Source: Pseudomonadota bacterium | GTDB lineage: Bacteria > Pseudomonadota > Alphaproteobacteria > Dongiales > Dongiaceae | Assembly (NCBI GenBank): GCA_016183985.1 | Contig: JACPDN010000006.1 | Location: forward strand, 1,178,001 to 1,242,000 | Length of the DNA: 64,000 nt | Reading direction: 5' to 3' | Shown: positions 21,436 through 51,214 of the stretch, piece by piece | Layout of the letters: the number at the start of each line of letters is the position of its first letter | Position numbering within the stretch: the stretch's first letter is position 1 | Position numbers and translations under genes: made by a program | The notes under the pieces: generated by a model | The model's database searches: none | The model's input: the letters and a program-made list of their open reading frames with translations, nothing else | Told to the model about the DNA's origin: nothing

Positions 21436-21556
21436 TTTCCAACCCTTCCTTAAGAACCGGCACCGCGCTCCGACAATCGGCTTTGCGACCGGCGATGCCC
21501 TTAACCTGGGCAATCCTTTCGGTTAGGTTGTGAACCTCTTCACATGACCCGCAGCT

Positions 21557-45077: not shown

Positions 45078-47108
45078 TCAGATCGCCTTCGTCGCCTCAT
45101 TGAGCCAGGCGAGGTCGCTGCCGGTGAGCTGCGGCGCCAGGGCCGCGCGGACTCTGGCGTGATAGGCGTTGAGCCAGGCGATTTCTTCCGCCGTCATGAG
45201 CTTCTTCTCGATCGCGTTGAGGTCGATCGGCGCCAGGGTCAGGGTTTCGAATTCCAGCCAGTCGGCATTGTCCTTCACTTCCCGCACGACAACGAGATTC
45301 TCGATGCGGATGCCGAATTCGCCTTCCTTGTAATAGCCGGGCTCGTTCGAGACGATCATGCCGGGCTCGAGCGCCACGCGGTTCGGCACCTTCGATATGC
45401 GCTGCGGGCCTTCATGCACGGAGAGATATGAGCCGACACCGTGGCCGGTGCCGTGATCGTAATCGAGCCCCACATCCCAAAGCGGTTTCCTGGCCAGGGC
45501 ATCGAGTGCCGAGCCGGTGGTGCCTTTGGGGAAGCGTGCGGTGCCCAGCGCGATATGGCCTTTCAGCACACGGGTGAAACACTCCTTCATCTCCTGCGTC
45601 ACCGTACCCACGGCGATGGTGCGGGTGATGTCGGTGGTGCCGTCGAGATATTGCCCACCGGAATCGATCAGGTAGAGCGAGTTCACGGGGATCTCGCGCT
45701 GCGTTTCCGGCATCGCCTTGTAATGGCAGATGGCGCCGTTGGGGCCGGCCGCCGAGATGCTGTCGAAAGAGAGATTGCGGAAGTAGTCGTTGCCGTGACG
45801 GAAGGCTGCCAGCTGGTCCGAGGCCTCGATCTCCTTGAGGCCGCCTTTCGGCGCACGCTCGGCAATCCAGGCGAGATAGCGGGCGACCGAAGCGCCGTCG
45901 CGGGTATGGGCGTTGCGCGAGCCCTGCACCTCGATCTCGTTCTTCGCGGCCTTGGGGAGCGCGCAGACACATTCGCCGACGCTCACCCGCGCGCCGGATT
46001 TCGCGAGATTGTCGTAGACCCATTCCGAGGTGGTCGCGGCATCGATGGCGACGACCGATTTCGCTTCACCCAGTGCCTTCAAACCGGCTTCGAAAGCGTC
46101 GGGCGCCGCCACCGCGACCTCGTTGCCCAGATGCGTGAGCGCCTGGGGCGTCAGCTTGCGGCGGTCCATATAAAGATCGACGCGGGCGTCGTCATGAAGC
46201 ACGGCGAAGCCGAGCGCGAACGGTGTGCGCGGCACGTCGGCGCCGCGGATGTTGAGCAGCCAGCAGAGGGAATCCGGGCCGGAGATGATCGCAGCCGCCT
46301 TCCCTTCCGCCTTCAGCCTGGCAGCGAGGGCGCGCCGTTTCTCGGCAGAACCCTCGCCGGCAAACTTCATGTCATGCGGCAGGACGGGTGAAATGGGATC
46401 GGCGGGTCGGCCGGCCCAGATCTCGTCGACCGGGTTCCTTGCGACCGCCACCAGCTCCGCCCCGGCGCGCTTGGCGGCCGCACGGAAGCGGCCCGCCTGG
46501 TCCGGCGTGAAGAGCTTGGGATCGAAGCCGATCTTCTGCCCCGGCTTCATCTCGGCAGCGATATAGAGGTCGGCCGGCTCAGTCACCAGATGACGATATA
46601 TATAGAGCGACGGGTCGACCTGATCCTTCACCTGGATGGTGTAGCGGCCGTCGACAAAGATCGCGGCCTTGTCTTTAAGGACCACCGCCATGCCGGCCGA
46701 GCCGGTGAAGTTGGAGATATAGGCGAGGCGCTCGGCATTCTTGGGAACATATTCCCCTTGATGATCGTCGGCGCGGCCGATGATGAAGCCGTCGAGGCCT
46801 TGGCGCTTCAATGCCTCACGCAAGAGGGTGAGGCGGGCGGCGATGGGCTGACCTTGCGTCTGGGCGGAGCGAGATTCCTTTTCCCGCCGGAAGGCCTGCA
46901 GCTGGGCGACCAAGGCCGGGCTCGGGTTATCCGCCACCAGATCCATCCAGGCATCCGGCCGCTCGCCCGCCGGCGCCGCCGCGATCCCCGGCAAAAGTTC
47001 AGTAAGGGCGTTAATACTTAAGTGCGCCTGGTGCTTTTTGAGCAGCCCGCTAAGCGCGTCATCCCCTTGATAGGTCTCGCGGCAAGCTGAATCCGGGGAA
47101 GTTACCAT
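45078..47108 (-). CDS. Xaa-Pro aminopeptidase (PepP family) with N-terminal extension
   Basis: This is a pita-bread M24 peptidase with two creatinase N-domains and the catalytic domain. Metal ligands are in LIDSGGQYLDGTTDITRT (both Asp), HGTGHGVGSYLSVHEGP (His), VSNEPGYYKEGEFGIRIEN (two Glu) and the intervening His. Cytoplasmic members release N-terminal residues before Pro. About 75 extra residues precede the usual start (typically near RLTLLREALKRQGLDGFIIGRADDHQGEYVP) and form a helical-looking segment (ALSGLLKKHQAHLSINALTELLPGIAAAPAGERPDAWMDL). ATG 47108 has GGAG six bases upstream; the ORF track's 47129 has none. Confidence 0.93.
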   Translation of the reverse strand: MVTSPDSACRETYQGDDALSGLLKKHQAHLSINALTELLPGIAAAPAGERPDAWMDLVADNPSPALVAQLQAFRREKESRSAQTQGQPIAARLTLLREALKRQGLDGFIIGRADDHQGEYVPKNAERLAYISNFTGSAGMAVVLKDKAAIFVDGRYTIQVKDQVDPSLYIYRHLVTEPADLYIAAEMKPGQKIGFDPKLFTPDQAGRFRAAAKRAGAELVAVARNPVDEIWAGRPADPISPVLPHDMKFAGEGSAEKRRALAARLKAEGKAAAIISGPDSLCWLLNIRGADVPRTPFALGFAVLHDDARVDLYMDRRKLTPQALTHLGNEVAVAAPDAFEAGLKALGEAKSVVAIDAATTSEWVYDNLAKSGARVSVGECVCALPKAAKNEIEVQGSRNAHTRDGASVARYLAWIAERAPKGGLKEIEASDQLAAFRHGNDYFRNLSFDSISAAGPNGAICHYKAMPETQREIPVNSLYLIDSGGQYLDGTTDITRTIAVGTVTQEMKECFTRVLKGHIALGTARFPKGTTGSALDALARKPLWDVGLDYDHGTGHGVGSYLSVHEGPQRISKVPNRVALEPGMIVSNEPGYYKEGEFGIRIENLVVVREVKDNADWLEFETLTLAPIDLNAIEKKLMTAEEIAWLNAYHARVRAALAPQLTGSDLAWLNEATKAI

Positions 47109-47174
47109 CTTGATCTCCAAATTAACCATAAATGCTGTGACAGCTAAGTCACTATACCGTCTTAATTAGTTCTT

Positions 47175-47190
47175 AGTGATATGCATCACA
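47175..47190. promoter_or_regulatory. CRP/FNR-type site upstream of the DUF1127 gene
   Basis: AGTGA-TATGCA-TCACA matches the TGTGA-N6-TCACA consensus at nine of ten positions. A second, looser dyad, GTGAC-AGCTAA-GTCAC, lies at 47137-47152 towards the aminopeptidase gene. A Crp/Fnr regulator is encoded at 21.6 kb, but the link is speculative. Confidence 0.5.
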
Positions 47191-47348
47191 CTGCCATCTT
47201 GGCCGTTTTGCATGCGTCAGATGCATTGCTGCGATGCGGCGAAACCACTACTAAACGGGTCGGGTAAAGCCTATGTTCAATCTGTCCGCACAACAGAAGT
47301 GATGGCAACGGTGCCATCTGAACTTAAGAGCCGGATTGGAAGGTTACT

Positions 47349-48005
47349 ATGAATCGGATCGTGATCAATCAGAACGTGGCGTCGAACGTGGCCCTCGCGC
47401 CTGCCGCCACCAAGGAAATCGGCCTCGCTGCTTTCGCGCGCTTTGGCCGTGCCATCTCCAGCGCCGTGCGCCGCACCTATGCGCGCATCCAGCTGGAAAA
47501 CGAACTCTACGCCCTCGACGATCGTTCGCTGAACGACATCGGCGTGGGCCGTGGCTCCATCCCGGCGCTGGCGCGCGAAGCCCTGCCGGCCGGTGACGAG
47601 AGCCTCTTCGCGGAATTCAGCCGCCTCGTCGTCAACGGTGTCCTCCGTCCGGCGATCGACTGGAACCGTCGCCGCAAGGCCCGTGCGACCCTCGAGGCGC
47701 TCGATGACCGGTTGCTGGCCGATATCGGCCTCGCCCGTTTCGAGATCGAGGCTCACGTGGCCCGTCTCTCCGGCGCCATCAACGGCCCGCTCCCCGCGGC
47801 CGTCCAGGCGATGGAAGAAGACGTGACCGCGCCGCTCAAGGCCTGGTCTGCGGCCCGTGCCACCGCGAAGGAATTGTCGCGCCTGACCGATCGCCAGTTG
47901 ATGGATATCGGCGTCATCCGCGGCGACATCGACGAGTTGGCCGGCAACCTCGCCGAGCGTGGCCTTGCTGCCAACAGCAACGCCCTCGCCCCGAAGGCCG
48001 CCTAA
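47349..48005 (+). CDS. Three-unit DUF1127-like protein
   Basis: The 218-residue protein contains three DUF1127-like units: ENELYALDDRSLNDIGVGRGSIPALAREA near residues 50-78, ARATLEALDDRLLADIGLARFEIEAHVARL near 115-144 and AKELSRLTDRQLMDIGVIRGDIDELAGNL near 176-204. Each keeps the L..L.DR.L.DIG..R..I core. DUF1127 proteins are usually single domains of 50-70 residues with roles in phosphate/carbon metabolism and RNA turnover in rhizobia. A tandem triplet is unusual. GGAAGG is upstream of the ATG, and the gene ends at a strong terminator. The Arg-rich linkers suggest nucleic acid or RNase contact (inference). Confidence 0.78.
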   Translation: MNRIVINQNVASNVALAPAATKEIGLAAFARFGRAISSAVRRTYARIQLENELYALDDRSLNDIGVGRGSIPALAREALPAGDESLFAEFSRLVVNGVLRPAIDWNRRRKARATLEALDDRLLADIGLARFEIEAHVARLSGAINGPLPAAVQAMEEDVTAPLKAWSAARATAKELSRLTDRQLMDIGVIRGDIDELAGNLAERGLAANSNALAPKAA

Positions 48006-48041: not shown

Positions 48042-48084
48042 GAAACGGCGGTCCGGGTTCGCCCGGGCCGCCGTTTCAGTTTTT
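48042..48084 (+). terminator. Strong intrinsic terminator of the DUF1127 gene
   Basis: GAAACGGCGGTCCGGG-TTCG-CCCGGGCCGCCGTTTC is an almost perfect hairpin with a UUCG-type loop, followed by AGTTTTT. It overlaps the last codons of the convergent prmA, so prmA reads into it too. Confidence 0.92.
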
Positions 48085-48963
48085 GCGGCCCTTGCGCTTC
48101 AGCACCAGCACCGACCAATCGTTCTGGCGGATGCGGAAATCGAGTTCGAGGCCCACGGCCTGATGGGCCGCCAGCACGTCCTTCTCCTGGGTCTTCAACA
48201 AGCCGGAGAGAATGGCGCGGCCGTTGCGCCCCAGGCTCTTGGCAAGATCCGGCGCCAGTGAAATGAGCGGATTGGCAAGGATGTTCGCCGTGATGAGGTC
48301 ATAGGGACCGTTGTCGCGAATGGCCTTTGCCCGGTAGCCGTCCGAAGCGAGAATGCGAATCTCCTTCTTGAGACCGTTGATCGCCGCGTTCTCGCGCGCC
48401 ACCCGCACCGCGTCCTTATCGTTGTCGCCGGCCATCACTTTGACGCCAAAGAGATGATGTGCCGCGAAGGCCAGGATGCCGGTACCGGTACCGATATCGA
48501 GCACCTTCTTCACCTTCATCGTCTTCGAAAGCTTCAGCAGGGCCTTGACGCAGCCGCTGGTCGTTTCATGCCGGCCGGTGCCAAACGCCATGCCGGCGTC
48601 GATCTCGAGCGGGATGACATTCCTGGGCGCCTTGCCGCGGTCGTGTTCGCCATGGATGAAGAACGGCCCCATCTTGATCGGTGCCAGGCCCTTGCGGCTT
48701 TCGGCCAGCCAATCCTTGTCCGGGACCGGGCCGATGACGGCCTTGAGATTCCCGAACGGCTTCAATACGGCCTTCACGGCAGCGGCCGACGGCTTGTCCT
48801 CGCCGATTACTTCCATGTGCCAGCCCTTGCCGCCATCGGTCTCGAAACTGACCAAGGCGGCACCGAAGGGCTCCAGCGCTTCCTCGAGCGCCAGGCGCCA
48901 GGCGGTTTCCGGCTTGAAGTCGAAATCGACCGTCACCGCGTAGAGTTTCACTTTTGCCGTCAT
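48076..48963 (-). CDS. prmA: Ribosomal protein L11 methyltransferase
   Basis: The 295-residue SAM-dependent enzyme trimethylates lysines of ribosomal protein L11. The N-terminal alpha/beta lobe (VKLYAVTVDFDFKPETAWRLALEEALEPFGAALVSFETDGGKGWHMEVIGED) binds L11. The catalytic lobe has IDAGMAFGTGRHETTSGCVKALLKL, VLDIGTGTGILAFAAHHLFGVKVMAGDND and DLITANILANPLISLAPDLAKSL, with the NILANPL active-site loop. The start at 48963 follows GGGG and lies 4 bases after the stop of the UvrD-type helicase gene, so the pair is probably one transcript. The stop sits within the convergent terminator hairpin. Confidence 0.93.
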   Translation of the reverse strand: MTAKVKLYAVTVDFDFKPETAWRLALEEALEPFGAALVSFETDGGKGWHMEVIGEDKPSAAAVKAVLKPFGNLKAVIGPVPDKDWLAESRKGLAPIKMGPFFIHGEHDRGKAPRNVIPLEIDAGMAFGTGRHETTSGCVKALLKLSKTMKVKKVLDIGTGTGILAFAAHHLFGVKVMAGDNDKDAVRVARENAAINGLKKEIRILASDGYRAKAIRDNGPYDLITANILANPLISLAPDLAKSLGRNGRAILSGLLKTQEKDVLAAHQAVGLELDFRIRQNDWSVLVLKRKGRKN

Positions 48964-48967
48964 CCCC

Positions 48968-51214
48968 TTACCCCGCCTTTTCCGCCGGCAGCACGAAGCC
49001 GGCCATGACCTTTTTGACACCCGCCTTGTCGAAGGCGATTTCGAGCTTATCGCCATCGGCGGTCAAGACCTTGCCGTAGCCGAACTTCTGATGGAAGACC
49101 CGCGTGCCGGACGGATAGACGCCGGAGGAACTGGGCAGCACCTCTACTTCGACATCGATCGTCGGCGGCTTCCGCTGGGCAAACGACCGGCCATTGCCGG
49201 CCCAGGGATGCGCATTGCCGCCCCAGGTCTGGGCGCCGAAGCCCGATGGCTTAGGTGCTGCAAATCCCACGTGATCCTGGCGGTCGATGTTTTCCTTCGG
49301 GAGCTCGGCCAAGAAGCGCGAGGGCAGCGAGTTCTGCCACTGGTTATGAATGCGACGCGAGCCGGCATGGCCGATGATGGCAAGCTTCTTGGCGCGCGTG
49401 ATGCCGACATAGGCCAGGCGCCGTTCTTCTTCGAGCCCCTTGATGCCGTTCTCGTCGAGCGCCCGCGGATGGGGAAACAGCCCCTCCTCCCAGCCGGGCA
49501 AAAAGACGATATCGAATTCGAGCCCCTTGGCGCCGTGAAGCGTCATGATCGAAACCTGGTCGCGCGGGCCAGCTTCGGCATTTTCCATCACCAAGGAGAC
49601 GTGATCGAGGAAGCTTTCGAGGCTGTCGAAATCCTCGAGCGCACGCACGAGTTCCTTCAAGTTTTCGAGCCTTCCCGGCGCCTCGATCGACTTGTCCTGC
49701 TGCCACATCGCGGTATAGCCGCTTTCATCGAGGACAATCTGCGCCAGTTCGGCGTGATGCGTATTCGCAGCCGTCTGTCGCCAGCGCGCGACGTCGTTCA
49801 TGAAGGAGCCCAGCGCGCGGCGGGCGGCCGGTTTCAGCTCATCGGTCGAGACGATCTGGCGCGCCACCTCCGGGATCGAGAGCGATTGGGCGCGCGCGAT
49901 CTCATTCAGCTGCTTCAGCGTCGTCTCACCGAGGCCCCGGCGCGGCGTGTTGACGATGCGCTCGAAGGCCAGGCCATCATCGGGTTGATGAATGAGGCGC
50001 AAGTAAGCCAGCGCATCGCGGATTTCCTGGCGTTCATAGAAGCGTGGGCCGCCGATGACGCGATAGGGGATGCCCAGTGTGATGAAGCGTTCTTCGAATT
50101 CGCGCGTCTGGAAACCGGCGCGGACCAGGATGGCAATGTCCTTGAGCTCGGTGCCGCGCCGCTGCAGCGTTTCGATCTCATCGCCGATCTGGCGCGCCTC
50201 TTCCGTGCCGTCCCAGGCGCCGATGATGCGCACCTTCTCGCCTTCAGCGACATCGGTCCAGAGCGTCTTCCCCAAGCGCCCCTCGTTATGGGCGATGAGG
50301 CCGGAGGCGGCAGCAAGGATATGCGGGGTCGAGCGGTAATTCTGTTCCAGGCGGATGACTTTGGCGCCGGGGAAGTCCTTTTCGAATTTCAGGATGTTCT
50401 CGACCTCGGCACCGCGCCAGCCATAAACCGACTGGTCGTCATCGCCGACGCAGCAGATGTTCTTGTGACCCTGGGCAAGCGCCCGCAGCCAAAGATATTG
50501 GGCGACGTTGGTGTCCTGGTATTCGTCGACCAGGATGTAGCGGAATTGGCTCTGGTAGCGTTCGAGCTGGTCGGGGGCCGTTCGGAAAATGGTGAGGTTG
50601 TGCAGCAGCAGGTCGCCGAAGTCGCAGGCGTTCAAGGTCAGCAAACGCTGCTGGTAAGCGTGATAGAGGTCGAGGATACGGCCCGACGCCACCTCGGCCA
50701 GCTCCGCGCGGCTGACCTTATCTGGAGTGAGGCCGCGATCCTTCCAGCGCTCGATGATCCCCAGCACCACGCGCGATGGCCAGCGCTGTGAATCGAGACC
50801 TTCCGCCTCGATCAGCTGCTTCACCAGGCGCAGCTGATCGTCGGTGGAGACGATGGTGAAATTAGGCTTGAGGCCGACGAGTTCCGCCTGGCTGCGCAGG
50901 ATGCGAGCGGCCAGCGCGTGGAAAGTGCCGAGCCACCAGCCTTCGACCGGACGGCCGATGAGACGGCCGATGCGTTCCTTCATCTCGTTGGCGGCCTTGT
51001 TGGTGAAGGTCACCGCGAGAATCTGCGACGGCCAGGCAAGGCCCGAGGTCAGGATATGCGCCAACCTTGTGGTGAGGACGCGTGTCTTGCCCGTGCCGGC
51101 GCCGGCCAGCACCAGAACGGGGCCATCCAACGCCAACACGGCCTCGCGCTGGCGGTCATTGAGCCCGCCGAGATAGGGGGCGTTAAGAGCGGAGATATCG
51201 GTCGAATCGGTCAT
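48968..51214 (-). CDS. UvrD/PcrA-type ATP-dependent DNA helicase
   Basis: The 748-residue superfamily 1 helicase has Q-motif GLNDRQREAVLALDGPVLVLAGAGTGKTRVLTTR (Walker A), Ia and Ib regions such as AVTFTNKAANEMKERI, motif II ILVDEYQDTNVAQYLWLRALA (DEYQD), motif III VGDDDQSVYGWRGAEV, motif IV RLEQNYRST, motif V IMTLHGAKGLEFDIVFLPGWEEG and motif VI EERRLAYVGITRAKK. It acts in nucleotide excision and mismatch repair. The C-terminal tail shows a Tudor-like segment (SGTRVFHQKFGYGKVLTADGDKLEIAFDKAGVKKVMAGFVLP), as in PcrA. Confidence 0.95.
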   Translation of the reverse strand: MTDSTDISALNAPYLGGLNDRQREAVLALDGPVLVLAGAGTGKTRVLTTRLAHILTSGLAWPSQILAVTFTNKAANEMKERIGRLIGRPVEGWWLGTFHALAARILRSQAELVGLKPNFTIVSTDDQLRLVKQLIEAEGLDSQRWPSRVVLGIIERWKDRGLTPDKVSRAELAEVASGRILDLYHAYQQRLLTLNACDFGDLLLHNLTIFRTAPDQLERYQSQFRYILVDEYQDTNVAQYLWLRALAQGHKNICCVGDDDQSVYGWRGAEVENILKFEKDFPGAKVIRLEQNYRSTPHILAAASGLIAHNEGRLGKTLWTDVAEGEKVRIIGAWDGTEEARQIGDEIETLQRRGTELKDIAILVRAGFQTREFEERFITLGIPYRVIGGPRFYERQEIRDALAYLRLIHQPDDGLAFERIVNTPRRGLGETTLKQLNEIARAQSLSIPEVARQIVSTDELKPAARRALGSFMNDVARWRQTAANTHHAELAQIVLDESGYTAMWQQDKSIEAPGRLENLKELVRALEDFDSLESFLDHVSLVMENAEAGPRDQVSIMTLHGAKGLEFDIVFLPGWEEGLFPHPRALDENGIKGLEEERRLAYVGITRAKKLAIIGHAGSRRIHNQWQNSLPSRFLAELPKENIDRQDHVGFAAPKPSGFGAQTWGGNAHPWAGNGRSFAQRKPPTIDVEVEVLPSSSGVYPSGTRVFHQKFGYGKVLTADGDKLEIAFDKAGVKKVMAGFVLPAEKAG

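Follow-up and report, generated by a model that had tools for sequence, protein, structure and literature searches.

Proteins of the DUF1127 family (Pfam PF06568) are widespread, and their molecular role is disputed between RNA binding and protein binding. They are customarily described as single-domain proteins of about 50-70 residues, a size that is not a formal Pfam criterion. The Rhodobacter protein CcaF1 binds RNA (PMC10253847, PMC12501420), whereas no RNA binding was observed for Salmonella YjiS (PMC11707872). The small DUF1127 proteins of Agrobacterium as well as YjiS bind sensor kinases (PMC12501420, PMC11707872). Agrobacterium and E. coli DUF1127 proteins bind PhoR, and an Agrobacterium mutant regains PhoR control when given DUF1127 proteins of other species (both PMC12501420). 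YjiS co-purifies with SsrA (PMC11707872, PMC12501420).

In Brucella, DUF1127 genes are controlled by VtlR, with the motif CAATGCAGCCATGCA (PMC12595884), and a VtlR box GCAT-N3-TG-N3-T has been proposed for Brucella and Agrobacterium (PMC7486931). LsrB/VtlR has been reported as restricted to Rhizobiales (PMC11975290). A third described system that bears on the present locus is the tmRNA (ssrA) tag. In E. coli, the AANDENY part of the tag binds SspB and the ALAA part binds ClpX, and SspB together with an AANDENY-type motif can deliver substrates even when the ClpX motif is weakened (PMC8512704).

This report describes a DUF1127 gene of a soil/water bacterium of the genus Dongia; the gene lies within a window of 64,000 nucleotides, the whole stretch of DNA that was analyzed. 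The encoded protein shares with the small DUF1127 proteins (CcaF1, those of Agrobacterium, and YjiS of E. coli and Salmonella) the PF06568 domain, the L..LDDR.L.DIG core and a predicted all-helical nature. It differs from these single-unit proteins of about 50-70 residues in its 218 residues and three units; it is also extended at the N-terminus, ends in a tag-like tail and is encoded at a fixed pepP/prmA locus. No description of multi-unit DUF1127 forms, of this locus or of the tail was found in those parts of the open-access DUF1127 literature that were searched or read. An earlier first-pass annotation of the gene did not mention its promoter box, conserved locus or tag-like tail.

The three-unit gene and its locus

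The gene and its surroundings comprise the following features.

45078..47129, minus strand: pepP-like aminopeptidase P gene, divergent neighbor with conserved synteny
47349..48005, plus strand: three-unit DUF1127 coding sequence, ATG start, 218 residues, supported by orthologues and dN/dS
47460..47555, plus strand: DUF1127 unit 1, the weakest unit (22.6 bits alone)
47658..47750, plus strand: DUF1127 unit 2, basic (pI 10.5)
47835..47933, plus strand: DUF1127 unit 3, acidic (pI 4.7)
48042..48084, plus strand: strong intrinsic terminator where the two genes converge
48076..49056, minus strand: prmA-like methyltransferase gene, convergent neighbor with conserved synteny, true start uncertain

The first-pass annotation had read the protein as three DUF1127 units in tandem, and the profile search confirms this: against PF06568 the protein scores 84.9 bits (E 3e-24) in three stretches, which excludes a protein with only one scoring unit; five divergent orthologues and a congener likewise give three stretches. 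Taken singly in a genome-wide DUF1127 profile search, units 1, 2 and 3 reach 22.6, 37.0 and 40.7 bits; with a gathering cut-off of 23.3 bits, unit 1 alone falls short by 0.7 bits and units 2 and 3 pass. The linkers, described earlier as variable, are nearly equal in this protein, with unit spacings of 62 and 61 residues; they do vary among the orthologues (62-65 and 54-62 residues). The strong terminator noted earlier was found again as a 16-bp stem at 48042-48077 followed by a T-tract (-35.1 kcal/mol, z -6.0).

The two neighbors are taken here to be pepP and prmA, as judged from the look of their sequences; a uvrD-like gene is also convergent at the locus, together with the prmA-like gene. 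This pepP/prmA-uvrD arrangement recurs across the Alphaproteobacteria. Among 99 distinct DUF1127 proteins, 47 adjoin pepP and/or prmA-uvrD, and multi-unit forms account for 24 of these 47 versus 2 of the 52 found elsewhere, proportions that are not population estimates because the sample was mostly gathered by likeness to the trimer (trimer-like queries or an order-wide domain search), with family orthologues that are not mutually independent. Of the two multi-unit proteins outside the locus, one has three units and is encoded close to the end of a contig. The Dongia gene is the local form of a DUF1127 gene at a conserved alphaproteobacterial pepP/prmA locus, where three units are not obligatory, since orthologues in the same place have one, two or three. 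Genome G291 carries a further DUF1127 gene between pepP and the trimer; it encodes one unit and has a box-like site of its own.

The nearest named relatives of the protein belong to Dongia mobilis and Dongia metagenome-assembled genomes (76-82% identity). Three detectable units are present in 15 of the 17 genomes of the family, which comprise Dongia and its relatives. In genome G289 the third unit of the orthologue is degenerate, and the search of G300 delivered short matches only and no trimer. A sixteenth three-unit protein was found in another family of the class, and the search returned no plasmid relatives. Within Dongia the gene shows dN/dS values of 0.11-0.29. When one genome per genus is compared, a unit has its positional counterpart as closest relative in another genus in 18 of 21 cases; likeness between units of the same protein is only about 43-46%. 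This conservation by position, together with the low dN/dS, indicates from sequence comparison that the triplication is old and its units specialized. A recent tandem duplication is rejected, the units being closer to same-position units of other genera than to each other.

The variable number of units at the locus, the degenerate third unit of G289 and the lowest score of unit 1 in the Dongia protein would also fit a neutral unit number, in which one unit works and extra units drift. With three units retained by position in most of the family under low dN/dS, such drift is considered improbable.

Upstream elements

Upstream of the gene three elements were recorded.

47175..47190, plus strand: CRP/FNR-type half-palindromes AGTGA-N6-TCACA, conserved in the genus Dongia only
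47211..47237, plus strand: promoter box CATGC-N7-GCATTGCTGCGATGC, fitting the VtlR-type LysR box GCAT-N3-TG-N3-T
47272..47277, plus strand: TATGTT, a putative -10-like element about 35 nt past the box (consensus TATATT)

In an alignment of the upstream regions of 17 orthologues one block is kept throughout, CATGC-N7-GCATTGCTGC[AG]ATGC[AG]GC, with a TATATT-like element about 35 nt beyond it. The box at 47211-47237, within which GCATTGCTGCGAT meets the pattern GCAT-N3-TG-N3-T, is the single match in the window (0.02 expected by chance) and occurs in a single copy in the source genome. It is present at the trimer locus in 16 of the 17 family genomes; the search of these genomes found no box in G300, the genome in which no trimer was detected.

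A search of 289 alphaproteobacterial genomes with the strict form of the box returned 25 matches, and the reversed pattern returned none. Twenty of the 25 precede a DUF1127 open reading frame identified by HMM, and three precede small open reading frames with an LNDHMRQDIGL-like core, judged by eye to be DUF1127-like. The remaining two (L303 and L304) come from two genomes of one family, where the gene behind the box is presumably a DUF1302-type outer-membrane protein gene. Several syntenic tailed DUF1127 proteins outside the family have no recognizable box.

The box is a candidate site of a VtlR/LsrB-like LysR-type regulator. Dongia and the VtlR/LsrB-controlled DUF1127 genes of Brucella have the same type of box upstream of a DUF1127 gene (PMC12595884, PMC7486931); they differ in that Dongia and its relatives carry a long multi-unit gene and in that the Dongia regulator is putative.

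The possible CRP-type site of the first-pass annotation is present at 47175-47190 and matches 9 of 10 positions; it is weak, however, with 0.86 such sites expected by chance in the window, and it is kept in Dongia only. Its target might be the trimer gene or the divergent pepP, but it was rejected as the main control element on these grounds. The better conserved promoter element is the box. The window further contains a perfect CRP-type palindrome, TGTGAACCTCTTCACA, at 21529-21544, and an inverted repeat GTGAC-AGCTAA-GTCAC at 47137-47152 near the pepP start, which has similar counterparts in several Dongia genomes.

The C-terminal tail and phage DUF1127 proteins

The protein ends in a short peptide that resembles the tmRNA tag of its own genome.

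47967..48002, plus strand: C-terminal tail AANSNALAPKAA, resembling the own-genome tmRNA tag A-ANDNVASDLRMAA

The first alanine of a tmRNA tag is carried by the charged tmRNA itself. All 17 aligned orthologues share residues A208, N209, N211 and A218, with varying spacing between them. The trimer ends in KAA, and an AA or VA end is found in all 17. The tail has AANSN and lacks the D and the aromatic residue of the tag; among the orthologues a D at the fourth tag position is rare, and Tyr or Phe does not follow at any fixed place. In other genomes of the class, every readable tmRNA tag starts with ANDN and ends in AA (22 of 22). In the source genome an SspB gene, related to solved SspB proteins, directly follows the tmRNA gene.

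Tail and tmRNA tag are alike in their C-terminal place, in the AAN-x-N start and in the AA end, and both tmRNA and SspB are encoded in the Dongia genome. They differ in that the Dongia tail is gene-encoded and not added by trans-translation, and in that residue 4 and the middle of the DUF1127 tails vary.

In-frame ANxN-gap-AA-stop ends occur four times in the source genome: in the tmRNA, in the trimer, in a TetR-type regulator and in a 16-codon open frame, the latter two not being taken as related to the trimer. Across 57 genomes of the class such ends are mostly tmRNA tags, and DUF1127 accounts for 8 of about 16-20 plausible proteins, from seven families (taking 8 of 16 and assuming a background of 0.3%, p is about 1e-16). 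The ANxN tail is found in 38 of 47 syntenic versus 4 of 52 other DUF1127 proteins (p 4e-14, in a trimer-biased sample). Two single-unit DUF1127 proteins (L043 and L045), with neither pepP nor prmA in their vicinity, end in AANDNEYADAA and AADNDNEYADVA, near the E. coli ssrA tag.

DUF1127 proteins on viral contigs (80 open reading frames, L307-L386) carry a C-terminal NxNLKGWV or close variants in 74 cases, written as NxNL[KRGQT]G[WF]V, and never AA. A G[WF]V end occurs in none of the 2641 other open reading frames of the same viral loci. One of these viral proteins is similar to proteins from Roseobacter and Sinorhizobium phages, and a weak match to the trimer was obtained in an Agrobacterium phage. 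Because the phage proteins have NxN without AA, the NxN element may be unconnected with degradation; alternatively, the phage proteins may be a stable version.

The ANxN tail might accordingly be a DUF1127 docking motif for a partner other than SspB or ClpX, its likeness to the tag being a coincidence of alanine-rich C-termini. The phage ends point that way, as do orthologues in two bacterial families that end in AAD, VS, AK or AG. We regard this as possible although somewhat doubtful, given that genome-wide ANxN...AA ends are mostly tmRNA with half of the plausible proteins being DUF1127, and that the AA or VA end is constant in the aligned orthologues.

Predicted structure and proposed role

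The model of a single unit is a long helix followed by a short helix and a further helix (pLDDT 78), and neither a significant PDB fold match nor a PDB sequence match was found for it. The whole-protein model is poor (pLDDT 64.5, pTM 0.35). The models used shallow alignments built from the window and related-locus sequences only. Structure prediction, as the first-pass annotation had suggested, thus yields helices for the single unit and leaves an arrangement of the units unsupported; none is claimed here, owing to the poor whole-protein model.

That annotation had also proposed multivalent RNA or protein binding. The tandem architecture is borne out, kept in evolution and subject to purifying selection, which makes multivalency a reasonable inference; the equivalence of the units in RNA binding, by contrast, is argued against by their charges. 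Averaged over 15 trimers, units 1 and 2 are basic and rich in arginine; unit 3 is acidic, with a net charge of -1 to -4, in 14 of the 15, which makes three equivalent RNA-binding units unlikely. A multivalent RNA binder in which each unit acts like CcaF1 draws on the RNA binding of that protein (PMC10253847, PMC12501420) and on the basic units, and is rendered quite unlikely by the acidic third unit and by Salmonella YjiS (PMC11707872).

A protein-protein modulator of PhoR-like sensor kinases, its repeats giving avidity for kinase dimers, agrees with the binding and restored control of PhoR (PMC12501420) and with the co-purification of YjiS and SsrA (PMC11707872, PMC12501420). Nothing at the locus points to a kinase, however, and this role is held to be unlikely, less markedly so than a multivalent RNA binder.

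The preferred reading is a LysR-regulated, short-lived, multivalent DUF1127 regulator at the pepP/prmA locus, which in our judgment falls just short of probable. It builds on the observed units and their age, the locus, the box, the conserved tail and its association with DUF1127. The reported restriction of LsrB/VtlR to Rhizobiales (PMC11975290), the tailed proteins outside the family that have no box, the loss of the tag's D and aromatic residue, the ends other than AA in two families and the phage NxN ends count against it. A VtlR/LsrB-like LysR-type regulator would activate the gene from the box at 47211-47237. The three helical units would act together as an adaptor that binds protein, and possibly RNA, in multivalent fashion, as suggested by the single-unit relatives. 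The C-terminal AANxN...AA peptide would imitate the tmRNA tag, with AANxN docking to SspB and AA entering ClpX. Turnover by SspB and ClpX would make the protein short-lived, so that its level would track the inducing signal.

Extended to the pepP/prmA DUF1127 family with one to three units, the proposal is more tentative, possible rather than probable: its members would be LysR-regulated proteins with a gene-encoded mimic of the tmRNA tag, natural SspB/ClpXP substrates and self-limiting pulse regulators, and the phage NxNLKGWV forms without the degron end would possibly escape or block the pathway. The conserved locus, the nearly dedicated promoter box and the candidate C-terminal degron are handles on the regulation and turnover of this DUF1127 subfamily.
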